Assembly: GCA_015655075.1 (NCBI GenBank)
Contig: JAATFT010000094.1
Span: 1 to 64,000, forward strand
Length of the DNA: 64,000 bases
Reading direction: 5' to 3'
Source of the DNA: Clostridiales bacterium
GTDB taxonomy: Bacteria > Bacillota > Clostridia > Lachnospirales > Lachnospiraceae
The first letter of the stretch is position 1, and the number at the start of each line of letters is the position of its first letter. The notes under the pieces are model-generated. The model searched no databases. It saw nothing but the letters and a program-made list of their open reading frames with translations, and had not been told where the DNA came from. Both the position numbers and the translations under genes were made by a program. Of the stretch, positions 4,068-37,852 are shown piece after piece.

Positions 4068-4139
4068 AGCGCGAGACGGGATTCGAACCCGCGACCCTCG
4101 CCTTGGCAAGGCGATACTCCACCTCTGAGCCACTCGCGC
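4068..4139 (-). tRNA. tRNA-Gly (anticodon GCC)
   Basis: A 72-nt cloverleaf on the minus strand: acceptor GCGCGAG/CTCGCGC with discriminator T, anticodon stem TCGCC/GGCGA around loop TTGCCAA (anticodon GCC), and T arm GCGGG-TTCGAAT-CCCGT. CCA is not encoded. The gene is identical to the copy at 37781-37852. Its 3' end is the integration site of the element to its left. Confidence 0.95.
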
Positions 4140-22307: not shown

Positions 22308-22464
22308 TTACAGCCCTCCTAACATAACATTCTTTTAGTATGTATTTTATTATAGCAGCCGCCTTTGGATATGTCAAGATACATAACGCAGGTATTAAAA
22401 AATTATCAATGGCGCTTACATAAATGCTCTATTTCGGTCAGTTATATGATATGTGTACTCATAT

Positions 22465-22947
22465 CTAAAAAGCCGTCACAGATTGCCCGGATACTGGAAG
22501 CGGACAAGGTGTTCACCCCCGCCGCCTATTGGCAGGAGAACGGTATTTCTTGCTCATCGCAACAGCCCCCAAATCCCTATCGTTGGGTGTCGTCAACGGT
22601 ATCCGATATTCTGGAGAAGCGGAATTATCTCGGTCATACTGTGAACTTCAAAACCTACAAGCAATCCTATAAATCCAAAAAGAAGCTCTACAATCCAGAG
22701 GATAAACAAAAGGTGTTTGAAGATACTCACGAAGCCATTATTGACCTTGATACCTGGGAACGGGTACAGGAGTTGCGGAAACATAAACGCCGCCCCACGC
22801 GAACCGGCAAGACGAATATGTTTTCGGGTATCGTCCGCTGCGCTGACTGTGGGGAAAAGCTATACTACTGCACGAGCCGAAACTTTGAGGAGCGGCAAGA
22901 CCATTTTATTTGCTCTACTTCAAGGCTGAAAGGCACAGAGATATCCA
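22465..22947 (+). pseudogene. Large serine recombinase remnant (Tn4451 TnpX-like)
   Basis: Encodes the middle of a large serine recombinase: the recombinase domain (KPSQIARILEADKV, RWVSSTVSDILEKRNYLGHT, then VNFKTYKQSYKSKKK and FEDTHEAIIDLDTWERVQEL) and the start of the zinc ribbon (FSGIVRCADCGEKLYYCTSR). The N-terminal resolvase domain with the catalytic serine is absent, and the C-terminal coiled region is cut off. At about 22945 the sequence switches to IS256 transposase coding in another frame. It marks the right boundary of the degraded mobile segment. Confidence 0.85.
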
Positions 22948-23136
22948 TATGCCATCAGTAACTGGGGAAGCAACTGGGATGTAGTCAGCCCCTTCTTCCG
23001 TTTTAACGATGATATCCGCAGAATCATGTACACAACTTATACCGATATCGGCCATAGCACAACAAACATCATAGAGGGGCTGAACCGTCAGTTCCGAAAA
23101 GTCACCAAGACAAAAAGTTCCTTTACAAATGATTAA
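22948..23136 (+). pseudogene. IS256-family (mutator) transposase C-terminal remnant
   Basis: In frame from 22948: YAISNWGSNWDVVSPFFRFN, DDIRRIMYTTYTDIG, STTNIIEGLNRQFRKVTKTK, SSFTND, stop. The segment TTN.IEGLNRQ.RKVTKTKG/S is the hallmark near the end of IS256 transposases. There is an apparent small insertion (TYTDIGHS) before the TTN motif. Start, DDE residues upstream and terminal inverted repeats are not seen. It ends 9 bp before the stop of the LarA-like gene. Confidence 0.85.
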
Positions 23137-23144
23137 TCTGGATT

Positions 23145-24422
23145 CTACATTTCATGAAATCTATTCTTATCTATCCAAAGACCTAGTGCTGGATTCGGTA
23201 TATAGAATATCTCTTCCCCATCAGGCATAATATTCCATCCATATTTCATCTCATTTACATTGTATCTCTTAGCCGTCTCATCGTAATCAGCAGATTGAAA
23301 TCCAACTCTCTCTATTTCTTCTTTTGATATGTTTTTGACTGCGTAAGTAATATGAAAACGTTCATCACTAGAGCCATGTATTAAGTGGGCTGCCGCTCCC
23401 ATATTATCTCTTAGATCCTGATTTTCCTTAAACAGCTCTAATATCTTTTTTCTTCCACAATATCCATATTTTCTGATAATCTTATCATTATCACTATCTT
23501 CACCAAAACTTTTAACCCCAGGTGCTAAGACTACTAATTCACCATCGTCTTCAATAGCCATTCTCGTACGGTAAATGGCCTTATTACCAAGCCATGTACT
23601 GTGAAACTCTTTGGGATCCAAATAAACTACACACTTTTTAAAACCTTTTTCTACAAAGTCTATATTATGTTTCTGTGCTGCTGCAATGGCATTCTCTAAT
23701 ACGGCTCTCTCATCACCAATATAAATACCGTGAGTTAAAATTTTATTCTGCGAAGCCTTTGTCACAGTTAAGACAAATACAATTGGAACATTACTTAAAA
23801 AATGTTCCAATCCATAATCTAAAATTTTCCGTACAGGAGAATGGTCTTTTCCCATGATTCTCTCCAGACCAAAGACAGCTCCTATCATGTGAGAATCATT
23901 AATAATTTTACTACCGCCTACTCCTACGAATATATTTTTCGAGTGATTGGCCATACCTATGACTTCATGAGGGACTACTTGTCCAACAGATAAAATCAGA
24001 TCATAAGATGGATCCATAACTCTTTTATTTACCTCTACAATAACTTCTTCATCCCACGTTCCTTCACTGATCTCTTCTAAATACTCACCTGGAACTGTGC
24101 CTATTTCAATAGTATCTTCCCTCCATCTATGCTCTGACATAACTTCAAATGGAATATCTCCATACATTTCCTGAAATTGTTCTTTTGACATAGGTCCATG
24201 GGTTCCTTGAGCGATTAAAACATCAACTGTACATCCTTGATCCTTTAACATATGATAATACCGATTAGTTATAAAACCAGCATTGGAATGAAAGCGAGTA
24301 AAGTCTGGTGGTATGATTAATACTTTATTTAAATTACGCTTTTCAATGGACTGTCTTAAGCTTTCTATGATTTCCTCATCTGTTAGAGCTTCACCTTCTT
24401 TTGCTTCTAGTAATAGATTCAT
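23145..24422 (-). CDS. LarA-superfamily (nickel-dependent racemase/epimerase type) protein
   Basis: Related to lactate racemase LarA, which uses a nickel-pincer nucleotide to invert an alpha-hydroxy carbon; family members are known for several hydroxyacids including D-gluconate. The 425-residue length fits. Candidate ligand/catalytic residues: HGPMS with His75, EHRW with His98, VPHEVIG with His152, NHSKN with His160 and Lys162. The start was placed at the ATG before NLLLEAKEGE, after AAAGGA; an in-frame start 12 codons upstream is weaker. It is the last gene of an operon with an FGGY kinase, hydroxyacid dehydrogenase, KDPG aldolase and Liv-type importer, suggesting C2 epimerisation of a sugar acid (inference). 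No larB/C/E cofactor genes lie in the window. Confidence 0.82.
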   Translation of the reverse strand: MNLLLEAKEGEALTDEEIIESLRQSIEKRNLNKVLIIPPDFTRFHSNAGFITNRYYHMLKDQGCTVDVLIAQGTHGPMSKEQFQEMYGDIPFEVMSEHRWREDTIEIGTVPGEYLEEISEGTWDEEVIVEVNKRVMDPSYDLILSVGQVVPHEVIGMANHSKNIFVGVGGSKIINDSHMIGAVFGLERIMGKDHSPVRKILDYGLEHFLSNVPIVFVLTVTKASQNKILTHGIYIGDERAVLENAIAAAQKHNIDFVEKGFKKCVVYLDPKEFHSTWLGNKAIYRTRMAIEDDGELVVLAPGVKSFGEDSDNDKIIRKYGYCGRKKILELFKENQDLRDNMGAAAHLIHGSSDERFHITYAVKNISKEEIERVGFQSADYDETAKRYNVNEMKYGWNIMPDGEEIFYIPNPALGLWIDKNRFHEM

Positions 24423-24499
24423 GATTTTATCATTCCTTTCACTTCCCTCAAGATCCAACTGAAAACCTATGATTTTATATCTCCAGGATATTTGCTTCT

Positions 24500-25918
24500 T
24501 TATTTTAAATGGTAGGCTTCTAAATACTTTTCATAATATCCTCTATAATAATCAAATGCTTCTTCTCTAGGCTTTATTGTAATAGCTGAATTGTAATCCA
24601 CACGAAATTCCTTAATATCCTCTAATTGTCCACAAGCATGAAGGGCCAATGCAATGGCTCCCATAGAGGAAGCATTGGGATAGCTAGATACAAGGATCTC
24701 CTTTTGAAAAATATCAGCTAACATCTGTGTCCATCCTTTGGAATTGGTAATGCCACCAGATACGATGATCTGATTGGGTGCTCCATTTTCCTTACACAGT
24801 ACTTCATAGCATTGATATGAGTTAAATAGAATTCCCATCTGGATTCCTTGATAAAGCTCTGGAACTCCATGGAACTCATCTAGAGCCATAAAGCCTCCGC
24901 GTCTTGCATCATTCCAACCCGGACATCTTTCCCCATATAAAAATGGTAGAAATACAGGTACACTGGGATACTCATCACTGGTTTCTTCTAACTCCTCAAA
25001 AGATAATTCGCCACGCCCTATCTTGTTTCTATACCAATCAATACAATTACATGCTCCTGCAATAGCCGCTCCTGATATCCACTCTTCTACACCACAGTAA
25101 CACCACAATTGATTACCTTCTGGTAATACCGGCATCTTAGTAACCATACGAAGAGCACCACTGGTTCCTATGGATATAGTCATCATCCCAGGATGGCTGG
25201 CATAATTCCCGATTTGATTCAAAGCCCCATCTGGATGGGCAGGAACAACTGGTATTCCTTCTGTAAGACCTAACAATTTAGCACCGTATGCATTTAATGG
25301 CCGCGTTTCTTTGTAATCAACTACTCTTCCCAACTGATCTTCTCTGATTCCAAGTAAGTCTAAGGTATAGGCATCGTATTTCCTTTCTTTTAAATTAATA
25401 ATACCAGAACCACTTTGAGTAGTAACAGATTCAAGAAATTCACCTGTTATTTGGTAAAAGTTATAGCCGCCTTGTGTAACAAAGTATTTATCGGTAATAT
25501 CCAGTCCTTCTTGAGCCATGTATTGTATTCCATGTCTAGGATAGGTAACGTGTAACATACATCCAGTATTATGATATATCGTCCTTTTTAGTTCTTCATC
25601 TTTTCTTAATGCATTACAGATATCAGCCGTTTTCACAAAATTCCAAGAATAGACCGGTGTCACAGGTTTCATTTCTTCATCACAAGCACATAATCCATGC
25701 CAAGTACCACAAAGAGAGAGCGCCTCTATCTTCTCGCCTTGTGCAATACTTCTTGCAATATCCATGCTTAGCTGAAAGACTCCTTCAGCATTGGTTTCTC
25801 CTTCACCTTCTATTTCTTTTTCATAGATTCTCTGATCAGACTTTACGATACCTTTTTCTGTATCATACAAAATTGCTTTTGCTGAACTTGTGCTGGATTC
25901 TATTGCTAAAACTAACAT
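24500..25918 (-). CDS. FGGY-family carbohydrate kinase (gluconokinase-like)
   Basis: Phosphorylates a sugar, polyol or sugar acid with ATP. N-terminal ATP/phosphate motif LAIESSTSSAKAILYD, substrate region CGTWHGL and YSWN, catalytic Asp likely in HPDGALNQIG (D230 region), and phosphate motif TISIGTSGALRMV; C-terminal adenosine motif IIVSGGITNSKGWTQMLADI. Length 472 is slightly below the 490-510 usual for gluconokinases. The features GTSGA and HPDG resemble gluconokinase/xylulokinase subgroups, and the KDPG aldolase neighbour favours a sugar-acid substrate. Ribosome binding site GAGGGGG. Confidence 0.87.
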   Translation of the reverse strand: MLVLAIESSTSSAKAILYDTEKGIVKSDQRIYEKEIEGEGETNAEGVFQLSMDIARSIAQGEKIEALSLCGTWHGLCACDEEMKPVTPVYSWNFVKTADICNALRKDEELKRTIYHNTGCMLHVTYPRHGIQYMAQEGLDITDKYFVTQGGYNFYQITGEFLESVTTQSGSGIINLKERKYDAYTLDLLGIREDQLGRVVDYKETRPLNAYGAKLLGLTEGIPVVPAHPDGALNQIGNYASHPGMMTISIGTSGALRMVTKMPVLPEGNQLWCYCGVEEWISGAAIAGACNCIDWYRNKIGRGELSFEELEETSDEYPSVPVFLPFLYGERCPGWNDARRGGFMALDEFHGVPELYQGIQMGILFNSYQCYEVLCKENGAPNQIIVSGGITNSKGWTQMLADIFQKEILVSSYPNASSMGAIALALHACGQLEDIKEFRVDYNSAITIKPREEAFDYYRGYYEKYLEAYHLK

Positions 25919-25956
25919 TACCCCCTCATCTCCTTCCTGTCATTAAATATCGTCTG

Positions 25957-26907
25957 CTACTTCACTATGTAAGCACAGTCTTCGCCGTTTAATATTTTCA
26001 TCAGATTCTCCACAGCCCTTGCAGCCATAAGTTCCGTAGCTTCTTTCGTATGAGCACCTGTATGAGGAGTTGTTACTACATTAGGGAATTCAAACAGTGG
26101 TAATTTCCCTGGAGGTTCCTCTTCAAATGCATCCAAACCCAGTCCTCCTATTTTCCCTGTTTTTAATCCTTTATAGGCAGCATCTTCATCAATAATGCCT
26201 CCTCTAGAGGTATTGATAATGATTACTCCATCCATCATTTTCTCTATTGCTTCGCTTCCGATTAAGTGTTTCGTTTCCTTATTAAGGGGAATATGTATGC
26301 TAATAATATGCGATCTGGAAATCACCTCATCCATAGTCACTGGTTCAATCCCTTGATCCTTGCAATAGTTCTCGTCTATATAAGGATCATAAGCTATGAC
26401 TTTCATTCCGCATCCCATTGCACATTTAGCCAGCACCTTACCAATAGCTCCAAGACCTAAGATCCCCAATGTCTTTCCTTTCATCTCCATTCCAGTAGAA
26501 CGTGCCCATTCCCCTTCTTTGGTCATACAATTAAGATACGGAATTCTTCTAGCCACACTTATCATGAGAGCAAAAGCTAATTCTCCAACTGCTTGTGCAT
26601 TAACACCGGGGGTGTTGGTAATAGTCACCCCGTATTTTTTAGCAGCCACCATATCTACACGATCATATCCTGCTCCATATCTTGAAATCACTCGTAACTT
26701 CTTACATTCCTTTAGCACTTTTTCTGTGATAAAATCAAGACCTGCAATATATCCATCACAGTCTTTTAATAATGGAATTAATTCATCTTCTTCCAATGGT
26801 CTTCCCTTTGGATTAAATACCAGCTCTAAAGAAGAATCTTTTAACTTTTTTAATACTTCTGATTTAGAATGTTCTTGCAAAGATGTTGGTGTTATTAATA
26901 CTTTCAT
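25957..26907 (-). CDS. D-2-hydroxyacid dehydrogenase
   Basis: NAD(P)-dependent oxidoreductase interconverting a 2-hydroxyacid and 2-keto acid. The Rossmann motif is GILGLGAIGKVLA (about 148-160). The catalytic triad is Arg235 in NTSRGG, Glu264 in FEEEP, and His282 in TPHTGAH. Length 316 is standard. The acidic residue after the glycine motif appears to be Asp174 in AYDPY, which usually indicates NAD preference. In this operon it could reduce or oxidise a 2-keto sugar acid, complementing the LarA-like protein; this is inference. Confidence 0.9.
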   Translation of the reverse strand: MKVLITPTSLQEHSKSEVLKKLKDSSLELVFNPKGRPLEEDELIPLLKDCDGYIAGLDFITEKVLKECKKLRVISRYGAGYDRVDMVAAKKYGVTITNTPGVNAQAVGELAFALMISVARRIPYLNCMTKEGEWARSTGMEMKGKTLGILGLGAIGKVLAKCAMGCGMKVIAYDPYIDENYCKDQGIEPVTMDEVISRSHIISIHIPLNKETKHLIGSEAIEKMMDGVIIINTSRGGIIDEDAAYKGLKTGKIGGLGLDAFEEEPPGKLPLFEFPNVVTTPHTGAHTKEATELMAARAVENLMKILNGEDCAYIVK

Positions 26908-26917
26908 GTCATTCTCC

Positions 26918-27556
26918 CTACTCTTTGCTTTCCACTAGCGCTACCGCTTCTCTTACTAGGCTCTCTATTTTGGAGAATTCTTTTCCCTTAATAAGTGCAT
27001 CTTGCACCATCCAACTTCCACCACAGGCAATAACAGAAGGACAAGCCAGATACTCAAGTATATTGGAAATATCAATTCCACCTGTAGGCATAAATTGCAT
27101 ATGCGGGAAAGGTGCTGCCAAGGCTTTAATGGTATTCAATCCACCATACTGTTTTGCCGGAAAGAATTTTACAACTGAAAGATTGTATTCCAATGCCATC
27201 ATTAATTCTGAAGGTGTACAAATTCCTGGATAAATAGGTATTTTCTGATCTACGGAGTACTCTATAACCCCTCTATTAAGACCAGGTGAGACGATAAATT
27301 TCACACCTGCATCCACTGCTTTTTTTGCTTGTTCAAGGTTTACAACCGTTCCTGCCCCTACCATTATCTCTGGATATTCTTTAACCAATCTTTGTATGGA
27401 CTCTTCTGCTGCATCCGTTCTAAATGTGACTTCTGCTGCAAGAAGCCCTCCTGCTCTTAAAGCACTACCCAGTGGTAAGGCATCCTCAACGCTATCTAAT
27501 TTAATAACAGGAACTAGCTTGGTTCTTTTTAATTTTTCTTTCGCTTCTTCAAACAT
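26918..27556 (-). CDS. eda: KDPG/KHG aldolase
   Basis: Splits 2-keto-3-deoxy-6-phosphogluconate (or a related keto-deoxy acid) into pyruvate and an aldehyde (glyceraldehyde 3-phosphate). Class I aldolase marks: AEVTFRT with Glu42 and Arg46, GAGTV phosphate contact, PG region in VSPGLNRG, and the Schiff-base lysine Lys130 in VVKFFPAK; the C-terminal phosphate loop is MPTGGI. The 212-residue length matches Eda. The ATG at 27556 with GAGAGG is chosen over a start 19 codons upstream. No phosphogluconate dehydratase gene (edd) is in the operon, an informative gap. Confidence 0.92.
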   Translation of the reverse strand: MFEEAKEKLKRTKLVPVIKLDSVEDALPLGSALRAGGLLAAEVTFRTDAAEESIQRLVKEYPEIMVGAGTVVNLEQAKKAVDAGVKFIVSPGLNRGVIEYSVDQKIPIYPGICTPSELMMALEYNLSVVKFFPAKQYGGLNTIKALAAPFPHMQFMPTGGIDISNILEYLACPSVIACGGSWMVQDALIKGKEFSKIESLVREAVALVESKE

Positions 27557-27618
27557 AGACAATCCTCTCTTTCCTATTACTTGCTTCCTCTCTTGATAAA
27601 CAGTTACATCCATGTCCT

Positions 27619-28635
27619 TTATAAAATCACATTTACCTTCATGTAATCACCAGGATTCTTATCTATATCAATAATGGTTTCCGGAGTCTCTTCCATGGGA
27701 ATTACTTTTGTAAGTATAGCTCTAACATCTACTTTATTTTTGTAGATTAGCTCAATAGCTTCCTCAAATTCATTGGCACTGGTTCTTGCACCTTTGATGT
27801 CGATTTCCTTCTTGGTAATCCTATCTGTATGTAGAGGGGTCTCTGTCTTAGGCCATCCTGTCAGTGTCACTCTACCAGCATTTGAAACGATATCCAAGCA
27901 AGCTTGAATTGCTGAATTAGCACCTGAACACTCCATGACTAACTCTGCCAGCCTCCCATTGGTATAATCTGGTATTTTAGATGTCAAATCTTCTTTCATA
28001 GAATTAATTGTGTATTTTACGCCTATATTCTTAGCAAACTCCAGACGTTCATCCACTACATCAATAACAATAGGCTCTGCCTCATAAGCAAGTGCTACCA
28101 TAGCGGCCAGAATTCCAATTGGGCCTGCTCCAATAATTGCTACGTGTTCTCCTGCCTTTAATTCTCCTCTATGTACACCGTGCAAAGCTATGGTAAGCGG
28201 TTCAATCATAGGTGCAATATCCCATTCCATAGCATCAGGAATCTTCCATAGCATATCTGCCGGATGGGACAGATAATCTGACATTCCCCCATCTACATGT
28301 ACACCTAATACCTTTAGATCGGTACAACAGTTCGTACATCCTATAGAACAAGGGTAACATTCTCCACAATATAGATATGGGTCTACAATGACATGATCCC
28401 CTACCTTTAATCCTCTGCTGTTATTAGAAGGTATAGATAGAATCTCTCCTGCTATTTCATGACCGATAATTCTTGGATAAGATACCAAGGGATTGGTTCC
28501 TCGAAATGCACCAATATCACTTCCACAAATACCTGCAGACTTTATTTTAATAAGTGCCTCACCTTGTTTAGCTACTGGCTCCTTAATTTCAATACAATCT
28601 ACTTTCTGTGGTTCTGTTAATTTTATTGCTCTCAT
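27619..28635 (-). CDS. Zinc-dependent medium-chain dehydrogenase (polyol / L-idonate type)
   Basis: Oxidises a secondary alcohol of a polyol or sugar acid using NAD(P). Catalytic zinc site: Cys in AGICGSDIGAF, His-Glu in IIGHEIAGE. Structural zinc Cys cluster: YCGECYPCSIGCTNCC, with one extra Cys beyond the usual four. Rossmann motif VAIIGAGPIGILAA. Length 338 matches the sorbitol/threonine/L-idonate dehydrogenase group. With the 2-hydroxyacid dehydrogenase it could rearrange a keto sugar acid before phosphorylation. Ribosome binding site GGAGGAG. Confidence 0.9.
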   Translation of the reverse strand: MRAIKLTEPQKVDCIEIKEPVAKQGEALIKIKSAGICGSDIGAFRGTNPLVSYPRIIGHEIAGEILSIPSNNSRGLKVGDHVIVDPYLYCGECYPCSIGCTNCCTDLKVLGVHVDGGMSDYLSHPADMLWKIPDAMEWDIAPMIEPLTIALHGVHRGELKAGEHVAIIGAGPIGILAAMVALAYEAEPIVIDVVDERLEFAKNIGVKYTINSMKEDLTSKIPDYTNGRLAELVMECSGANSAIQACLDIVSNAGRVTLTGWPKTETPLHTDRITKKEIDIKGARTSANEFEEAIELIYKNKVDVRAILTKVIPMEETPETIIDIDKNPGDYMKVNVIL

Positions 28636-28703
28636 ATGCTCCTCCTTTTAAGCCAAATCAGGTTTTCTTCAAAATAAACCTTTTTTATTTTCATTACAGA
28701 ATC

Positions 28704-29414
28704 TTAACCACCCAAATAAGCCTTTTTAATTTCATCTGTGTCCATTAATACCTTACTATCTCCCTGGGTAATCAAATTCCCTACTTCAAGAACGTACGTC
28801 CTATTAGAGATGGACATAGCCATAAATGCATTTTGCTCCACGATAACTACTGGTATCTTTCTATCTTTATTAATACGTACTATAATATCGAACATATCAT
28901 CTACAATCACTGGAGCCAGTCCTAAGCTTGGTTCATCCAGCATGAGTAATTCAGGATCTGGCATTAAACCTCTGGCAATTGCAAGCATCTGCTGCTCCCC
29001 TCCAGACATAGAGCCTGCTTTTTGTTTGATACGTTCTTTTAGCCTTGGAAAGATCTCATACTGCATATCTAAATGCTCCTGCAATTCAGAACTTTTCATC
29101 TTCACAGAATAAGCTCCCATCTCCAGATTTTCTTGTACCGTCATATTGGGGAAGATCTCACGACCCTCTGGTATATAGACAATTTTTTCTTTTACGATCT
29201 TATGTGTGTGAATTCCACTTATGGTTTTACCTTTATATTCAATGCTTCCTTTTTTTGCTTTGTTGATTCCCATGATTGTTTTCATCAGCGTTGTCTTACC
29301 AGCACCATTGGCTCCTATGATAGAGACAATTTCATCGCCGCCAACTTCAATGGATACATCAAACAGTGCCTGCACTTTCCCATAATAAACGTCTATTCCA
29401 TTTACTTTAAGCAT
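28704..29414 (-). CDS. Liv-type ABC importer ATPase, LivF-like
   Basis: One of two ATPases of a hydrophobic-amino-acid-type (HAAT) importer. Walker A GANGAGKTT, signature MSGGEQQMLA, Walker B LLMLDEPSLGLAP and a short C-terminus (236 residues) are exactly LivF-like. It overlaps livG-like by 13 bp. In this operon the importer likely carries a hydroxy- or sugar acid instead of an amino acid, because the accompanying enzymes are carbohydrate-acid enzymes. Confidence 0.93.
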   Translation of the reverse strand: MLKVNGIDVYYGKVQALFDVSIEVGGDEIVSIIGANGAGKTTLMKTIMGINKAKKGSIEYKGKTISGIHTHKIVKEKIVYIPEGREIFPNMTVQENLEMGAYSVKMKSSELQEHLDMQYEIFPRLKERIKQKAGSMSGGEQQMLAIARGLMPDPELLMLDEPSLGLAPVIVDDMFDIIVRINKDRKIPVVIVEQNAFMAMSISNRTYVLEVGNLITQGDSKVLMDTDEIKKAYLGG

Positions 29415-30223
29415 TTGCGGCCCCCTTTGCCATGTTCTTTCTTATATCTATCACCCAAATATGCTTCAATTACTAGAGGATCTTCTTGAATTTGTTCAGG
29501 TGTTCCTTCTGCGATCTTTGAGCCAAAGTTAATAACTGTTATATCGTCACTAATGTTCATAATAACGTCCATGTTATGCTCAATTAAAAATATATCAATG
29601 CCCGATTCAAATACCTTCATGATGATATCAACAAATTCCACACGCTCTGATGGGTTAAGGCCTGCTGCTGGTTCATCTAAGAATAGAAGGCTTGGTTCTA
29701 ACATAAGTGACCTTGCTAGTTCCGTTAATTTCTGTTTTCCATATGGCATATTAGCTGGATACTCATTTGACAGTTCCTGAAGCCCTATAAATTTCAATAT
29801 TAAATCTGCCTTTTCATTCATTGCTTTATCTTCTTGTCTTGCCTTTTTAAAGTCAAACATAAATGGCAAAAACCCTTGGTGCATGTCCATCATCATTCCT
29901 GTCATAATATTTTCTTTCACCGTCATAGAACGATATAGTTTTAGGTTTTGGAAGGTTCTACTGCATCTGGTTTGAGCTATTTGATAAGCTTTCATACCGC
30001 TAATCTTCGTATCTCTATGATATATTTCTCCATCCGTTAAAGGTAATAATCCAGTGATCATATTGATAACTGTTGATTTGCCAGCACCATTCGGTCCTAT
30101 AAGGGAATGGATAGTTCTTTCTTTCATCTTAAGGGATAGGTCCTTTACCGCTACTAAACCTGCAAATCGTTTCGTTACATTCTTTAGCTCTAAAATCGTC
30201 TTACTTTCCTTGTTATTTTCCAT
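29402..30223 (-). CDS. Liv-type ABC importer ATPase, LivG-like
   Basis: Partner ATPase, 273 residues. Walker A GPNGAGKST, signature MPYGKQKLTELARSL (LivG subunits often have PYG/LPYG instead of LSGG), Walker B LLFLDEPAAGLNPSER, and H-loop EHNMDVI. The insertion with FMFDFKKARQEDKAMNEKAD between Q-loop and signature is typical of LivG. Confidence 0.93.
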   Translation of the reverse strand: MENNKESKTILELKNVTKRFAGLVAVKDLSLKMKERTIHSLIGPNGAGKSTVINMITGLLPLTDGEIYHRDTKISGMKAYQIAQTRCSRTFQNLKLYRSMTVKENIMTGMMMDMHQGFLPFMFDFKKARQEDKAMNEKADLILKFIGLQELSNEYPANMPYGKQKLTELARSLMLEPSLLFLDEPAAGLNPSERVEFVDIIMKVFESGIDIFLIEHNMDVIMNISDDITVINFGSKIAEGTPEQIQEDPLVIEAYLGDRYKKEHGKGGRKCLK

Positions 30224-30241
30224 TTACTTTTACTCCTTCCC

Positions 30242-31183
30242 CTATTTTTTCATACTTTTCTTCTTGTTAAATAAAGAGAGCATTCCATTCGGAAGAAAAA
30301 TTACGAATAGTAGTGTAATAATAGAGAATACAAGCCAATAGTAGTTTTCAATAAATCTAAGTAATTCTGGTACTATGGTAACAAGGATGGCTCCTGCTAT
30401 ATTTCCTGCCACCGAACCGATTCCGCCGATAACCAGCATTACTACGTAGTTTATTGAGAACTCTATATTATATGCACTAGGATTCATAAATCCTACGTAG
30501 TGAGCGTATAGGCTGCCTGCGATTGTGGAATATACAGCTGTAAGTGTAAATGCCATGATTCTTAATTTGGCAATATTAACGCCGCTTGCATTGATTGCTT
30601 CTGGATTATCCTTAATTGCTAAGAAAGAACGTCCCCATTTGGAGTTAACGATTCTATAAGCATTGAATATGAGCAACAATGCAATCACAAGATACAAGTA
30701 ATAGATCTCTTTGTTTTCTCTAAATTCATGGCCGAAGATAGAAAATACAGGTATATTATTTACTCCTAAGGCACCACCTGTTAGATCCGTTAGATTGGTC
30801 ATTAATACTCTGACAATCTCTGAAAAACCGATGGTGGTCAGCGCCAGATATACTCCCGAAACCCTTAAGGAAGGATATCCCAAGCCTACACCGATGATAA
30901 TTCCCATAACTGCAGCTAGGATAAGACAGATCCATGGATTGACTCCTGATTTCGTTGCTACTAAGGCTGATGTGTATGCTCCCATTGAGAAGATACCTGC
31001 TGTTCCCAAGTTCATCTGTCCTGTAAGACCTGTAATAAAGTTAAGACCAAGCACTATGATAATATTGATCAATACTTGAATCATAAGATTCAAGTGATAG
31101 TTATTAGAAATAAATAATGGAAGAATAGCAGCAATGCCTATACATATTAATGCAATTATTAATGTTTTATTTTGTTTTTTCAT
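30242..31183 (-). CDS. Liv-type ABC importer permease, LivM-like
   Basis: Inner-membrane subunit, 313 residues with 8-9 hydrophobic segments. Family marks: GLNFITGLTGQMNLGTAGIFSMGAY region near residue 45-65, SGVYLALTTIGFSEIVR, and the ATPase-contact loop WGRSFLAIKDNPEAINASGVN. The tail is short and basic (SLFNKKKSMKK). It is separated from the LivH-like gene by 19 bp. Confidence 0.92.
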   Translation of the reverse strand: MKKQNKTLIIALICIGIAAILPLFISNNYHLNLMIQVLINIIIVLGLNFITGLTGQMNLGTAGIFSMGAYTSALVATKSGVNPWICLILAAVMGIIIGVGLGYPSLRVSGVYLALTTIGFSEIVRVLMTNLTDLTGGALGVNNIPVFSIFGHEFRENKEIYYLYLVIALLLIFNAYRIVNSKWGRSFLAIKDNPEAINASGVNIAKLRIMAFTLTAVYSTIAGSLYAHYVGFMNPSAYNIEFSINYVVMLVIGGIGSVAGNIAGAILVTIVPELLRFIENYYWLVFSIITLLFVIFLPNGMLSLFNKKKSMKK

Positions 31184-31202
31184 GTTTACCTCAATTCCCC
31201 CC

Positions 31203-32069
31203 TTATTTTCTATCCCTCAGTAAACCTGAAGGTTTGATTAATAAGAATATAATCAACAAAATAAATGAAAGACAATCCTTATAAACGGACGGGATTATCA
31301 TGCTTCCAAATATTTCCACAACCCCTAATAATATTCCTCCAAGAATCGCCCCCGGAAGGTGACCAAAGCCCCCAATTACACCTGATGCAAAGCCTTTTAG
31401 ACCAATCATAGAAGACATTTGTAATTCCACATTAAAGATTGGAACAACTAGGATTCCGATAATAGCACAGATGACAGCTGAAATCCCTACTGTTAGTGCA
31501 ATGTTAATAGATACGTTCACACCCATTAAAGAAGCTGCTGTTTTATTCTCAGATACACATCTCATGGCCTTACCTGTCTTCGTAAATTTGAAAAACAATT
31601 GAAGACTAACGGTAATCAAAGTACAGACTAGAATAATGATTACATGGGATCTTGATACGACTACGGAGCCAATCTTATACGACCCCTTTAAGAATCCATC
31701 TAAGGAAAATGGTAGAGGACCCCAGATCAAGCGAACTGCTTCTGTTATAATCCTACCTAAAATAACAGTTCCAATTACGGCAAATAAATTAGTAGATAAT
31801 CTGCTTAATGGATTGAATATTACGAATGCGCTCACAATTCCAAATAAAAACATCGTAATGATTGTACATAAAACCGCTATGACTGGTGGCAGCCCCAAAC
31901 TTAATACGTATGTACCTGCGAACATGTAAGCACCGAATAAGATGAATTTATCATGGCTGAAATTCAATAATCCTGTTGCATTCCATATAATGGTATACTC
32001 AATAGCTACCAGTGCGTAAATGAATCCCATAGCTATACCAGTTATCAATAACTGTATTAAAACCTGCAT
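31203..32069 (-). CDS. Liv-type ABC importer permease, LivH-like
   Basis: Partner permease, 288 residues, about eight membrane segments. LivH marks: IAMGFIYALVAIEYTIIWNATG, NFSHDKFILFGAYM, the coupling loop TKTGKAMRCVSENKTAASLMGVN, and LKGFASGVIGGFGHLPGAILG. The usual N-terminal 'LNFAHG' reads LNFSHD, a modest deviation. Ribosome binding site AAGGAGG. Confidence 0.92.
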   Translation of the reverse strand: MQVLIQLLITGIAMGFIYALVAIEYTIIWNATGLLNFSHDKFILFGAYMFAGTYVLSLGLPPVIAVLCTIITMFLFGIVSAFVIFNPLSRLSTNLFAVIGTVILGRIITEAVRLIWGPLPFSLDGFLKGSYKIGSVVVSRSHVIIILVCTLITVSLQLFFKFTKTGKAMRCVSENKTAASLMGVNVSINIALTVGISAVICAIIGILVVPIFNVELQMSSMIGLKGFASGVIGGFGHLPGAILGGILLGVVEIFGSMIIPSVYKDCLSFILLIIFLLIKPSGLLRDRK

Positions 32070-32095
32070 AAATAAATCCTCCTTGGACCTAGAAT

Positions 32096-32142
32096 GTTAG
32101 GCGTCAATATGTTGCTTGTCTTGATTTCTATTGACGCCTAAC
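32096..32142 (-). promoter_or_regulatory. Perfect 14-bp hairpin between binding-protein and LivH-like genes
   Basis: GTTAGGCGTCAATA and TATTGACGCCTAAC are exact inverted repeats around a 19-nt loop. No T run follows in the direction of transcription. As with the other importers in the window, it probably stabilises the binding-protein mRNA or attenuates readthrough. Confidence 0.7.
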
Positions 32143-32196
32143 CAAGAAAAACATAAAATGATTTTTGCGTTTGATTAATACTTAATTAAGTGATAC

Positions 32197-33378
32197 TTAC
32201 TGTGCAACGCTCATGCTTTTCTCACCATCAAACACTAGTATGTAAAGGTTGGTATTCATCTCACCCTTATCATTACAGTTCAAGGATCCAAACACTGCTT
32301 CAAAATCTTTTGTCTCAGAGAGTGCTTTTCTGATCTCTTCCGGATTATCTGAACCTGCACGCTCAATAGCATCTGCCACTAGATAAGCCGCTGTATAGTA
32401 CATAGCAGCATAACGTTCTACATCTTCATTCCATCGATCATGGAATCTGTCTAAAAATGCTTTCATAGTTTCATTTGTTTCATCTGCGAAGAAATCTGTA
32501 GAAGCATAAGTACCTTCTAATTGTTCCGCATCACATAAATCATAAGTTTGGGACATTGCAAGGGCATTAGGCCCTACGTGTGGAATATCATCCATTCCTA
32601 ATTCACTAAGCTGTCTGACGGTTAAAGCTGCCTCAGCATCGTGTGTAAAGTCAAAGATGACATCTGGCTCCCAGCTCTTGATCTTAGACAGCTGAGAAGT
32701 AAGGTCTTTGTCTCCTGTAGTCAAGCCCTCTGAATAATACTCGACTCCTTTTTCATCACAAAAACTCTTAGTAGCACCATCAGCTGCAACACCATAATCA
32801 TCTGTGTCATATAATGCAGCAATTTTTTTAGCATTATATTTCTCAATTGCAAAATCAACCATTGCTGGTCCAACTGCTCCGTCAGACACTGATATTCTGA
32901 AGAAATAAGGATTTTCTGCCTCTACTAATTTCGGTGAGGTTGCGGCTGTTATAAATGGGACTCCTGCTTTCCTATAAATCTCCTGAGTGGCTGATACCAT
33001 TGATGATGTATGAGGTCCTATGGAAACTGCTACATTATCACCTAAAATTTTATTAACAGCATTGACAGCTCCCGTTTGTGTACCTGCATCATCTACTAGT
33101 ACCATTTCTAAAGGTCTCCCATCTAACACTCCGCCTTTGGCATTAATTTCTTCAAAAGCTAAGGTAATTGCTTGTTTCATTCTAATTCCACCTGCCGCCA
33201 TAGGTCCGGTCATCATATTTGATACACCTACCTTAATGGATTTACCTGTTGCAGTTGATTTCGCTCCTGATTCACCAGTGGTTTTAGATTCTCCTGCTGA
33301 ATTCCCACATGCTGATAAGGTGGTTACCAGTAAACTTGAAGCTAATAATACTGTTATTAATTTTTTAAATCGTCTCAT
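32197..33378 (-). CDS. Liv-type substrate-binding lipoprotein (Peripla_BP_6)
   Basis: Lipid-anchored binding protein of the importer. Signal peptide MRRFKKLITVLLASSLLVTT with lipobox LSAC. Family landmarks: IKVGVSNMMTGPMAAGGIRM, AFEEINAKGGVLDGRPLEMVLVDD, IGPHTSSMVSATQEIYRKAGVPFI (ligand loop), and ALYDTDDYGVAADGATK. Length of 393 is normal. The ligand cannot be read, but the usual alpha-amino-acid contacts cannot be confirmed and the enzyme neighbours point to an organic acid. First gene of the operon. Confidence 0.92.
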   Translation of the reverse strand: MRRFKKLITVLLASSLLVTTLSACGNSAGESKTTGESGAKSTATGKSIKVGVSNMMTGPMAAGGIRMKQAITLAFEEINAKGGVLDGRPLEMVLVDDAGTQTGAVNAVNKILGDNVAVSIGPHTSSMVSATQEIYRKAGVPFITAATSPKLVEAENPYFFRISVSDGAVGPAMVDFAIEKYNAKKIAALYDTDDYGVAADGATKSFCDEKGVEYYSEGLTTGDKDLTSQLSKIKSWEPDVIFDFTHDAEAALTVRQLSELGMDDIPHVGPNALAMSQTYDLCDAEQLEGTYASTDFFADETNETMKAFLDRFHDRWNEDVERYAAMYYTAAYLVADAIERAGSDNPEEIRKALSETKDFEAVFGSLNCNDKGEMNTNLYILVFDGEKSMSVAQ

Positions 33379-33424
33379 TTTCTTCCTCCCAATACTTTTA
33401 TTGTATATTAGTATCCCTATAATA

Positions 33425-33470
33425 TATTACAGTACTGTTAATATATCATAACTACAAATTTAATGCAATC
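33425..33470 (-). promoter_or_regulatory. Candidate promoter and operator of the Liv/LarA operon
   Basis: On the minus strand: TTGCAT (33463-33468), 17-bp spacer, TATATT (33440-33445). The perfect palindrome ACAGTACTGT (33429-33438) sits directly after the -10, around the likely start of transcription, a normal place for a repressor. A GntR/FadR-type site would carry a GTAC-type core, as this does. Confidence 0.5.
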
Positions 33471-33620
33471 CTTTTTCACTTGTTTATTGTCATTTTGTAC
33501 AGTTTTTATATTTTTTTTATATTTTTTTGTTAATTTATTGTATTAAAAATATAAATCATTATCGACATATGTACTTTTTCCTATATTTGTTACGATACCT
33601 TTCAACAATTAGCCTATCTC

Positions 33621-33662
33621 TTGACAAAACTGCTTTTCACCTTATATACTCATATTTGTACA
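33621..33662 (+). promoter_or_regulatory. Candidate promoter and operator of the GntR gene
   Basis: TTGACA (33621-33626), 18-bp spacer, TATACT (33645-33650), followed by TTTGTACA at 33655-33662. The same TTTGTACA word recurs at 33494-33501 upstream of the divergent operon. This suggests autoregulation by the GntR protein. Confidence 0.5.
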
Positions 33663-33706
33663 CTTTGACACTAATATACTATGATAAAATAAAAGGTAGG
33701 GTTATA

Positions 33707-34390
33707 ATGGAAGAATTCAAACAAATAAAGAGTGAGAATGCAAGAGAGTATGCATTACGATATCTTTTACATCAGATTGTAAGCTTGAACCTGTCACCTG
33801 GACAGAAAATTTCTGATATGGAAATTTCAAAAGAGCTTCATATTAGTAGAACTCCCGTTAGAGAAGCTGTCATTACTCTGGTTAATCAGAAGTTAATTAA
33901 TAGCTATCCTCAAAAAGGACTCTATGTATCATACATTGATCCACATATCGTAGAAGAAGTTTGTATTATGAGAAAAGCAGTTGAAAGTGAACTTGCAGCT
34001 ATGAGCTGTAAACTCATTACGCAAAGCAGTTTAGATAATTTATACGATACAATCACCCTTCAAAAAGATTATATTTCCAGCGGTCCCAGAAGGAACTTAG
34101 AGAAGTTTTTAGCCCTCGACAAAGCTTTTCATAAAGAATTCTATAATATATGTGATATGGGATTTACCTATGATACCATGCAATCGGTAATGTCTCATTT
34201 TGATCGTCAGAGGAATTTGAGCTATCGCATCAATATAGAGCACCGTGTAATCAAGGAACACACAGATATATGTAATGCACTAGAGGTCAAAGACGAAGCA
34301 GCAGCACGTAAGGCCATGGATAAACACATTGGCGCCGCTTTATTAGATCAAGCAATATTAAAAGAAAAGTTTCCTGATTATTATTGTTAA
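33707..34390 (+). CDS. GntR-family regulator (FCD subgroup), divergent to the Liv/LarA operon
   Basis: A 227-residue transcription factor. N-terminal winged helix: SENAREYALRYLLHQIVSLN, PGQKISDMEISKELHISRTPVREA, LVNQKLINSYPQKGLYVS. The C-terminal FCD domain has the metal/ligand histidines (FLALDKAFHKEFY, HRVIKEHTDICNALEVKD, AARKAMDKHI). FCD-type GntR proteins usually sense small organic or sugar acids, which supports the predicted substrate class. The ATG at 33707 with AGGTAGGG fits the domain start; the open frame extends 60 codons further upstream without function. Confidence 0.9.
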   Translation: MEEFKQIKSENAREYALRYLLHQIVSLNLSPGQKISDMEISKELHISRTPVREAVITLVNQKLINSYPQKGLYVSYIDPHIVEEVCIMRKAVESELAAMSCKLITQSSLDNLYDTITLQKDYISSGPRRNLEKFLALDKAFHKEFYNICDMGFTYDTMQSVMSHFDRQRNLSYRINIEHRVIKEHTDICNALEVKDEAAARKAMDKHIGAALLDQAILKEKFPDYYC

Positions 34391-34510: not shown

Positions 34511-34552
34511 AAAAATCAGGAGCAATTATTTCCATAGTTGCTCCTGATTTTC
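34511..34552 (+). terminator. Strong terminator downstream of the GntR gene
   Basis: AAAATCAGGAGCAA and TTGCTCCTGATTTT form a perfect 14-bp stem around a 14-nt loop, with T-rich sequence after it. It is nearly symmetric, so it may stop transcription from both sides. Confidence 0.85.
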
Positions 34553-34948: not shown

Positions 34949-35745
34949 TTATTTACCCTGCCAAACCGGTTCCCTCTTTTCAAGGAAAGCGGTTAAACCT
35001 TCATGCACATCTTAGCTGGCGGTAAGGAGGACAACCAGATCGTGCAGATAATCCATAGATTTATAAAACTCCATATCCCTGCACTTATACATGCCTTCCC
35101 GACCCAGTGCAAGCGCCAGAGGACTCCTCGTTGCAAGAGTTTTTGCAAACTCACTGACGGCCTGATCCAATTGGTCATCAGGCACAACATGGTTGATAAG
35201 CCCAATTCTTTCGGCCTCGGCAGCCATAATGTGTTCGCCGGTATACATCAGCTCAAGACTCTTTTTGGTGCCGATGAGACGCGCTATCGGGGCAGTAATC
35301 ATCATACCCCATATACCTCTCGTAACCTCAGGAATGCCAAACTTTGCCGATTCGGCTGCAAATGTGATGTCGGCTGTAACGGCGAAGCCGCAGCCCGCCA
35401 GCCAACGCGTGCCCCCTGCACTGCGGCAACAGTCGGTTTTCCCGCATTAGTCAGTTCGATCAGGAGATTGGAATAATGACTCAGATGCTCGCGCAGCACA
35501 ATAACATTCTTGCGAACCTCGTCCAGGTTTCCAAGGTCAGCGCCGGTGCAGAAAGACTTACCGTTACTGCGGATTATGATAACTTTTACATCCGGATTGA
35601 CTCTGGCTTCGCGCAAAGAACCGCTATATTGGGTACCTCCTTTAAACCAAATAATTTCCCTTATCGGGTTCACCATGCCTCTTCCAAAAACTGCTGCAGT
35701 TCCGTGGTGTTGTGCACCGGACGGGCGTTGAAGCGCAGATACCAA
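34949..35745 (-). pseudogene. Enoyl-CoA hydratase/isomerase (crotonase) family pseudogene
   Basis: Crotonase-type coding sequence in pieces. Segment 1 has VNPDVKVIIIRSNGKSFCTG and AD (oxyanion hole region), then NLLIELTNAGKPTVAAVQGA. A frameshift near 35395 follows, and the protein resumes in another frame as MMITAPIARLIGTKKSLELM, EHIMAAEAERIGLINHVVPD and SPLALALGREGMYKC. A TAA at about 35015 interrupts before DVHEGLTAFLEKREP and the natural stop at 34949. The N-terminal part (FNARPVHNTTELQQFL) is also out of frame. At least three lesions make it non-functional; it is unlike its neighbours and was probably acquired with others lost from this zone. Confidence 0.8.
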
Positions 35746-36190: not shown

Positions 36191-36765
36191 TTATGCCGTT
36201 TTCAATGGAAACAGATAACTTTCTGTCCGTTCATTCTGTATCTTTGCATGGAGTTTGTTGATGTTATACCCCATACAAAAGTATTTCCAATTTTACCTTG
36301 GTTTTCCTCTGTTTCACTTATGATATTTTCATAGGATTCCTGACGTTTCTCAATGAAGCTTTTAGAAACATTCAGCCGTTTGTTCCACTTGGCTTTCGTA
36401 CATTTTTCCTTATGAGAACATCCGGTCCAGTCTTCACATTCATACACCGTCACCTCGGATTCGTAGCCATTTTTACTTTTCTGCTTTTTTATATACAACG
36501 GACTTAACTTTTTACCCGCATGGCAGGTATAACTATCTGTTTCTCTGTCATAATCCATGTTTTCCCGTTTGCTGATATCCTTCTTAAAACTGCGCTTTTT
36601 CCATTTCTCATAGATCTGGGGCTTGATATAGGGGACTTGCCGCCTGTTTTCTTTCAGATAGCTGTATCCCTCCTCGCTTTCGTAACCGGAATCAGCAGTC
36701 ACGCTGGGATATCTCAATCCCAACTTTTCTTCCATGTGTTTTAAAAATGGAAACCAATCTAACAA
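36191..36765 (-). pseudogene. IS1182-family transposase remnant
   Basis: Encodes the C-terminal half of a DDE transposase: HMEEKLGLRYPSVTADSGYE and SEEGYSYLKENRRQVPYIKP (motif around the second catalytic Asp), then the Cys-rich CEDWTGCSHKEKCTKAKWNK typical of IS1182/ISL-type enzymes. After ISETEENQGKIGN an internal deletion joins to the tail, which reads in another frame as CMGYNINKLHAKIQNERTES and YLFPLKTA before the stop at 36191. The N-terminal half and start are missing. A dead insertion sequence. Confidence 0.85.
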
Positions 36766-37780: not shown

Positions 37781-37852
37781 AGCGCGAGACGGGATTCGAA
37801 CCCGCGACCCTCGCCTTGGCAAGGCGATACTCCACCTCTGAGCCACTCGCGC
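37781..37852 (-). tRNA. tRNA-Gly (anticodon GCC), second copy
   Basis: Identical over all 72 nt to 4068-4139, with the same strand, anticodon loop TTGCCAA and discriminator T; CCA is not encoded. Flanks differ completely. Its 3' end shows no sign of an integrated element: no integrase and no second att copy nearby, and the terminator abuts it directly. Confidence 0.95.

Follow-up and report, generated by a model that had tools for sequence, protein, structure and literature searches.

The window analysed here is a stretch of 64,000 nucleotides from a Clostridiales bacterium of the Lachnospiraceae (contig JAATFT010000094.1, assembly GCA_015655075.1). Between positions 23145 and 33378 it carries ten consecutive minus-strand genes that place a complete Liv-type ABC importer next to five enzymes resembling those of sugar-acid catabolism, and these ten genes face a divergent regulator gene. 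In the order of reading they encode a substrate-binding lipoprotein, LivH-type and LivM-type permeases, LivG-type and LivF-type ATPases, a zinc-dependent dehydrogenase, an Eda-type aldolase, a D-2-hydroxyacid dehydrogenase (2HADH), an FGGY kinase and a LarA-like protein. An earlier note on this DNA had listed the same genes in this order, and the open reading frames, strand and coordinates agree with it. The domain searches match the gene identities as well, with two ABC ATPases, two BPD_transp_2 permeases, a Peripla_BP_6 protein, five enzymes and a GntR + FCD protein. The earlier note also described the importer and the enzymes as fused in one operon; the tight spacing makes a common operon plausible, but no two of the genes are fused and they are neighbours only.

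Spacing at the nine gene junctions lies between an overlap of 13 bp and a gap of 127 bp, and a single transcription unit for the ten genes is therefore plausible. Promoter-like matches in the region were at chance level (43 versus 45.1 expected), the count of terminator-like matches was not significant (8 versus 6.4 expected), and every one of the four terminator-like matches on the minus strand lies inside a gene; what speaks for the transcription unit is the spacing, the shared strand and the conservation. The divergent GntR/FCD regulator (33707..34390, plus strand; PF00392 and PF07729) likely starts at the ATG at 33707 rather than at the TTG at 33527 that opens the reading frame. A promoter-like match (11/12) is found upstream of this ATG at 33621-33650, and a terminator-like hairpin with an 18-bp stem follows the gene at 34512..34551 (plus strand).

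The last gene of the operon (23145..24458) encodes a protein with a Lar_N domain that scored 630.6 bits on NF052594, "nickel-dependent putative hexonate epimerase", above the cut-off of 500, and at most 62.6 bits on the other LarA models listed. By this profile match it is a member of LarA superfamily group 18 (hereafter LarA18). That group 18 enzymes act as hexonate epimerases has been put forward only as a hypothesis (Desguin 2020, PMC7583248), and we found no assayed member of the group in the excerpted text of that paper or of PMC11770544. Residues H87, H164, K174, H190 and K293 are present in the operon protein and invariant in all seven aligned sequences; by our own mapping they correspond to H108, H174, K184, H200 and K298 of LarA, catalytic and cofactor positions taken from the list in PMC7583248. 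Four selectivity positions are usually E, V, A and H in gluconate 2-epimerases (GntE), as described in a 2024 paper (PMC11770544). The operon protein has this signature as E165, V166, A357 and H358, at the positions of LarA F175, F176, W358 and T359, the transfer of numbering again being ours. The signature was counted in 106 group 18 matches, 17 of the 123 loci examined having been left out for want of a 250-bit match: the E is kept in all 106, the V in 104 (I in the other two), and the A and the H in 105 each (one not covered). The genome also contains the cofactor gene LarE (345.5 bits) and, at C7, another LarA homologue, in which both a Lar_N and a LarA_C domain are present.

The genomic context of group 18 relatives was examined in 86 loci, made up of the best 80 of 570 confirmed candidates from a query with the seven-sequence alignment and six taken from relatives, a set biased toward near relatives of the operon enzyme. 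Neighbours were counted by tblastn on the same strand within 7 kb, and the figures are raw counts with no random-neighbour control. Of the 86 loci, 63 had a 6-phosphogluconate dehydrogenase (6PGDH) near LarA18, as did 42 of the 54 with 3 kb or more to either side; among these 54 there were also PfkB kinases (36), SDR proteins (20), UxaC (19), UxaE (10) and UxuB (8). In Saccharobesus litoralis a gluconokinase and LarA18 are joined in one gene: the GntK-type kinase part (184.8 bits, cut-off 113.75) comes first and the LarA18 part (618.9 bits, above the cut-off) second, with larB, gnd and uxaC close by. A row of genes in Catenovulum adriaticum consists of uxaC, three TRAP genes, a gluconokinase gene, LarA18 and larC, with larB two genes further. 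This context and the fusion favour a route from mannonate through gluconate to 6-phosphogluconate. Given the 6PGDH and uronate-pathway neighbours of its relatives and the gluconokinase fusion, the operon enzyme most likely interconverts D-mannonate and D-gluconate, a strong inference from relatives. The guess of the earlier note, that an uncommon epimer might be involved, is in this way both supported and sharpened, and LarA group 18 gains a concrete candidate reaction, for which the fusion and the neighbouring genes of dozens of loci speak.

The FGGY kinase (24500..25918; FGGY_N/C) has the gluconate kinase 3gbt as its best PDB match, and a gluconokinase-like role is probable from the gene context and this nearest structural relative. 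Related kinases were searched for in 397 genomes of the family (E of 1e-60 or below, 4 matching), 391 of the class (E of 1e-80 or below, 15 matching) and 398 of the phylum (E of 1e-80 or below, 18 matching), the operon's own genome being included each time. This gave 35 non-self loci listed, 36 with the operon, some of them shortened by contig ends. On the same strand and within 10.5 kb of the kinase gene, 19 of the 36 have LarA18, 19 have 2HADH, 17 have 6PGDH and 15 have an Eda-type aldolase, with 2HADH and aldolase together in 12. The kinase tree has two well-supported groups. The operon kinase falls in the smaller one (nine rows), as sister to the kinase of genome G163 (support 100/95); within this group LarA18 occurs only in the operon locus and in G163, and 6PGDH is near in three of the nine loci. 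A role of the kinase as 2-keto-3-deoxygalactonate kinase was considered and is less likely, since the gene run at locus L168 that includes an FGGY kinase carries a separate DGOK kinase. A different LarA group is also found in a hexonate operon: a group 22 enzyme (L181:885-2183, minus strand; NF052515, 559.5 bits, cut-off 400) lies beside an FGGY kinase of the operon's clade, a TRAP importer and dehydratases.

Parts of the enzyme set recur in other genomes. In G163 the aldolase, FGGY kinase, 2HADH and LarA18 genes stand in one row, their products 51, 55, 57 and 61% identical to those of the operon, followed by an SDR gene and a PF10282 lactonase gene; a divergent gene of 255 codons there reads as an IclR-type regulator. 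In G1128, one strand carries 2HADH, FGGY kinase, LarA18, 6PGDH, a truncated SDR, a Peripla_BP_6 binding protein, LivH, LivM and LivG. The four-enzyme block in G163, and the G1128 run in which a Liv importer accompanies LarA18, FGGY kinase and 2HADH, show that the operon is more than a chance line-up. The earlier note had allowed that the linkage might be accidental, with homologous operons lacking the enzymes, and yet the G163 block, the G1128 run and the loci with TRAP importers do retain them. A search for the same ten-gene order, which the note had proposed, turned up the enzyme sub-blocks again, but the exact order was not seen a second time in the loci examined. The class of importer varies while the enzymes stay: it is of the Liv type in the operon and in L183, TRAP (DctM on the same strand) in 7 of the 36 loci and Rbs-type in L180, and in L173 a TRAP importer lies on the strand opposite to the enzymes. 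L195, L196 and L197 (in G1026, G857 and G973) are operons with LarA18, FGGY kinase, 2HADH, SDR proteins, a TRAP importer and an aldolase.

Two dehydrogenases belong to the operon. The zinc-dependent enzyme (27619..28635; ADH_zinc_N/ADH_N) resembles RspB, its best PDB match being RspB itself (4ilk), and scored 244.6 bits on NCBIfam PRK10083, the RspB type, below the cut-off of 376. RspB oxidises L-gulonate to D-fructuronate. The same oxidation is catalysed by GulD, as described in PMC5788505. At L028 in genome G050 a dehydrogenase 68% identical to that of the operon is encoded directly upstream of a LarA18 gene, and beyond LarA18 the sequence reads as an Rbs-type importer, an amidohydrolase, an MFS transporter and a metallo-hydrolase. 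The 2HADH (25957..26907; PF02826 and PF00389, 2-Hacid_dh) has phosphoglycerate dehydrogenase 1wwk as its best PDB match (234.3 bits), with glyoxylate reductases also near, and lies at much the same distance from E. coli GhrB and SerA (32 and 33%). Judging from family and context, the zinc dehydrogenase would act at C5 and the 2HADH at C2 of hexonates, the former assignment being a probable one.

The aldolase (26918..27613) passes TIGR01182, the family of aldolases for 2-keto-3-deoxy-6-phosphogluconate (KDPG) and 2-keto-4-hydroxyglutarate (KHG), with 246.7 bits against a cut-off of 156.05. It keeps all ten of the E. coli Eda residues that were checked (E45, R49, T73, P94, K133, F135, T161, G162, G163 and S184), which have functional roles in the E. 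coli enzyme, and since the ten are intact its likely substrate is KDPG. The step that forms KDPG is another matter. As the earlier note remarked, the operon lacks an edd-type dehydratase, and its own assembly (78.6% complete) has no match over the edd cut-off. Weaker edd-family matches occur in 17 of the 25 genomes compared, several with two or three, and may include other sugar-acid dehydratases. G163 and the own genome have a single ILVD/EDD member each, and in both it is IlvD (801.6 and 784.9 bits, respectively; cut-off 618.15), beside leuB and an acetolactate synthase gene, which slightly strengthens the biochemical gap. A plain Entner-Doudoroff route was rejected, with no edd over cut-off and with these lone members being IlvD. 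No 6PGDH was found in seven of the 25 genomes (G000, G163, G050, G039, G857, G973 and G1026), and in four of these seven (G163, G857, G973 and G1026) no UxuA was found either; completeness is 99% for G163 and 95-97% for the other three. Genomes with a gluconate-type operon and a KDPG-type aldolase that show none of the usual exits edd, 6PGDH and UxuA point to an enzyme still to be found or to a route not yet recognised. We had grouped G857, G973 and G1026 with the operon for the cleavage step, and this was dropped because their aldolases lack R49 and S184 (R49T and S184G). A xylan locus of the own genome (L129, contig C76:14001-32000) does encode a divergent UxuA of 320 amino acids together with a sugar-acid dehydratase of the enolase superfamily. 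The KDPG-forming step is absent from the operon and is most likely supplied by a dehydratase encoded elsewhere. The xylan locus also holds a GH10 protein, a GH2-type protein and a sugar ABC importer.

The importer is a complete Liv/HAAT set: a binding protein (32197..33378; PF13458, 210.9 bits), LivH-type (31203..32069; PF02653) and LivM-type (30242..31183; PF02653) permeases, and LivG-type (29402..30223; PF00005 and PF12399, BCA_ABC_TP_C) and LivF-type (28704..29414; PF00005) ATPases. The top NCBIfam models of LivM (195.4 bits, cut-off 366) and LivF (251.8 bits, cut-off 441) fall below their cut-offs, as does the LivJ subfamily model NF011933 on the binding protein (157.2 versus 477 bits). 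Residues S125, T147 and E249 of the binding protein align with S79, T102 and E226 of LIVBP, which hold the alpha-carboxylate and the alpha-amino group of the ligand. All three are kept in the binding protein of G1128. Ten plasmid Liv proteins, chosen among the 30 listed of 1202 matching records, were compared: two retain the Glu and the other eight have it replaced (by Asp in two). A ligand loop one residue shorter, seen in the binding proteins of the operon and of L183, was considered as a mark of sugar-acid binding and dropped, two of the ten plasmid proteins sharing it. A Liv importer lies beside such enzymes in 1 of the 35 other FGGY loci and in none of the 86 LarA18 loci, and a literature search on Liv importers of sugar acids, or on this set of genes, gave nothing judged relevant among the matches listed. 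Gene linkage tips the balance slightly toward a hexonate as the ligand. The earlier note had proposed both uptake and conversion of a sugar acid. The conversion is supported by the KDPG-type aldolase, the epimer and the linkage of the enzymes in other genomes; carriage by the Liv importer is a plausible assumption, weakened by these low counts and the Ser/Thr/Glu set of amino-acid binders.

Perhaps the operon serves the use of aldonates and keto-aldonates, funnelling six-carbon sugar acids into D-gluconate; we give this reading an even chance. The Liv importer would take up a sugar acid, and the zinc dehydrogenase at C5 (gulonate or idonate type) and the 2HADH at C2 (keto-gluconate or keto-gulonate type) would interconvert keto and hydroxy forms. 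LarA18, with its nickel-pincer nucleotide, would invert C2 between D-mannonate and D-gluconate, the FGGY kinase would phosphorylate the resulting hexonate, and Eda would split KDPG, made by the dehydratase outside the operon, into pyruvate and glyceraldehyde-3-phosphate. The GntR/FCD protein is probably an acid-responsive regulator. The components are of known kinds, and it is the combination of a group 18 LarA, the FGGY/2HADH/Eda block and a Liv importer that is new; the operon suggests that a Liv-type importer may serve sugar acids.

Several results weigh against the funnelling of hexonates into gluconate. The FGGY kinase is far below the gluconokinase cut-off (220.1 versus 648.55 bits on TIGR01314, gntK_FGGY), and both it and the zinc dehydrogenase stay below all NCBIfam cut-offs listed, so that the substrates of the two are guesses. 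The L168 gene run also holds DgoD and a second aldolase besides its DGOK kinase, and some aldolases near the FGGY kinase therefore serve another acid. No edd passed its cut-off in any of the 25 genomes, and the same model passed in 2 of 14 control genomes; no 6PGDH match was found in the own assembly at its 78.6% completeness, which leaves 6-phosphogluconate with no shown exit. LarC (PF01969), required for the cofactor, was likewise not found in this incomplete assembly. None of the 86 LarA18 loci (32 of them with less than 3 kb on one side) had a match to FGGY kinase, 2HADH, the substrate-binding protein or LivH, which makes the gene set of the operon a minority arrangement. The closest solved relatives of the binding protein are amino-acid binders (best 122.5 bits).

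Other readings of the operon are partly compatible with one another, and the confidence placed in each need not add up to one. The Liv importer may carry an amino acid or an amine-bearing acid such as 2-amino-2-deoxygluconate, its place beside the hexonate genes being partly accidental or reflecting another ligand. The LIVBP-type residues S125, T147 and E249, with a Glu kept in so few of the plasmid proteins, speak for this. The Glu could also bind a 2-hydroxyl, however, and the binding protein is far under the LivJ cut-off; a second Liv importer follows 2HADH, FGGY kinase, LarA18 and 6PGDH in G1128, with a binding protein that keeps the same three residues, and TRAP importers, whose class has been shown to transport L-gulonate (PMC5788505), also occur with these enzymes. 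On balance we regard this reading of the importer as unlikely. Phosphorylation might instead come before epimerisation, with the kinase acting on mannonate and LarA18 converting 6-phosphomannonate to 6-phosphogluconate. Such a pair of activities was shown in extracts of Lactobacillus suebicus, with no genes assigned to them in the excerpt of PMC6978723, and a kinase-LarA18 fusion is compatible with either order. The characterised LarA epimerases of related groups, as described in PMC7583248 and PMC11770544, nevertheless use free D-mannonate and D-gluconate, and we hold this order to be very improbable.

The remaining two alternatives concern the way to the aldolase. LarA18 could turn gluconate into mannonate, which a mannonate dehydratase outside the operon would convert to 2-keto-3-deoxygluconate (KDG), with the FGGY enzyme acting as KDG kinase and Eda splitting the product. 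This route needs neither Edd nor 6PGDH, the UxuA and the enolase-superfamily dehydratase of the xylan locus are at hand, the active site of Eda is canonical for KDPG, and the clade of the operon kinase differs from the one with most of the LarA18 and 6PGDH partners. Yet no FGGY enzyme is known to act as a KDG kinase, which counts against it, and a DGOK-family kinase shares the gene run with the FGGY gene in L168. The 6PGDH genes near three of the nine loci of the operon's kinase clade fit a gluconokinase better, and G163, which has the same block, has no UxuA match and an IlvD as its lone ILVD/EDD member (enolase-superfamily genes were not searched there). We consider the KDG route rather unlikely. 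Cleavage might also proceed with no dehydratase at all: the kinase would give 6-phosphogluconate or 2-keto-6-phosphogluconate, the 2HADH would provide the 2-keto form, and the aldolase would release hydroxypyruvate and glyceraldehyde-3-phosphate. For the 2HADH the nearest relative is phosphoglycerate dehydrogenase, an enzyme that oxidises a phosphorylated acid at C2, and the Pseudomonas enzyme KguD reduces 2-keto-6-phosphogluconate. The kgu operon of Pseudomonas is described as one for 2-ketogluconate utilisation (PMC11678583). G163, G857, G973 and G1026 hold kinase, 2HADH, aldolase and LarA18 with no edd over cut-off, 6PGDH or UxuA, and the lone ILVD/EDD member of G163 is the IlvD described above; enolase-superfamily and UxaA dehydratases, however, were not searched in these four genomes. 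The aldolases of the operon and G163 keep the canonical KDPG residues, whereas G857, G973 and G1026 have replacements among them, so that the reactions may differ. KDPG aldolases are also thought to be poor with hydroxypyruvate, a further point against this cleavage, and literature on a KDPG aldolase that forms hydroxypyruvate gave nothing judged relevant among the top matches listed. We find such cleavage improbable, and give an equally small chance to the wider scheme in which gluconate is broken down with neither dehydratase nor decarboxylase, LarA18 feeding in from mannonate and the Liv importer supplying the acid.

The reading as a funnel into gluconate can be compared with four known systems. 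The Thermotoga GntE pathway runs from mannonate through gluconate to 6-phosphogluconate (a proposal of Rodionova 2012, as cited in PMC6978723). There too a C2 epimerase of the LarA type stands beside a gluconate kinase, and group 18 relatives are found with uxaC, uxuB-type reductases and 6PGDH; the operon differs in that its epimerase belongs to group 18, in its Liv importer, its pair of dehydrogenases and its Eda, and in lacking 6PGDH and uronate isomerase. The L-gulonate pathway of Haemophilus comprises GulPQM, GulD, UxuB, UxuA, KdgK and KdgA (PMC5788505), and like the operon regulates an importer, a C5 dehydrogenase, a kinase and a KDPG aldolase together. The ten genes, in contrast, include no UxuA, UxuB or PfkB KDG kinase, and have a Liv importer instead of TRAP, plus LarA18 and 2HADH. 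The kgu operon of Pseudomonas also joins a kinase to a 2-hydroxyacid dehydrogenase acting on C2-keto hexonates, with another transporter and a kinase of another family; the Lachnospiraceae operon adds LarA18, the zinc dehydrogenase and Eda. In the fungal D-glucuronate pathway (PMC6353982), 2-keto-L-gulonate reductase, L-idonate 5-dehydrogenase and 5-ketogluconate reductase lead to a gluconokinase, the same succession of C2 and C5 redox steps with the kinase at the end, although the organisms are fungi and the scheme in the excerpt includes no LarA, importer or aldolase.

The surroundings of the operon contain remains of mobile elements. Directly downstream of the last gene lies a serine recombinase fragment (Recombinase and zinc-ribbon domains; 22365-22961, plus strand), and past the regulator there are fragments of an enoyl-CoA hydratase and a DDE transposase (35302-35745 and 36202-36765, both minus strand). 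With such remains on both flanks, the operon may have been acquired. Two tRNA-Gly(gcc) genes, at 4068-4139 and 37781-37852 (minus strand), lie 33.7 kb apart and flank the operon region.

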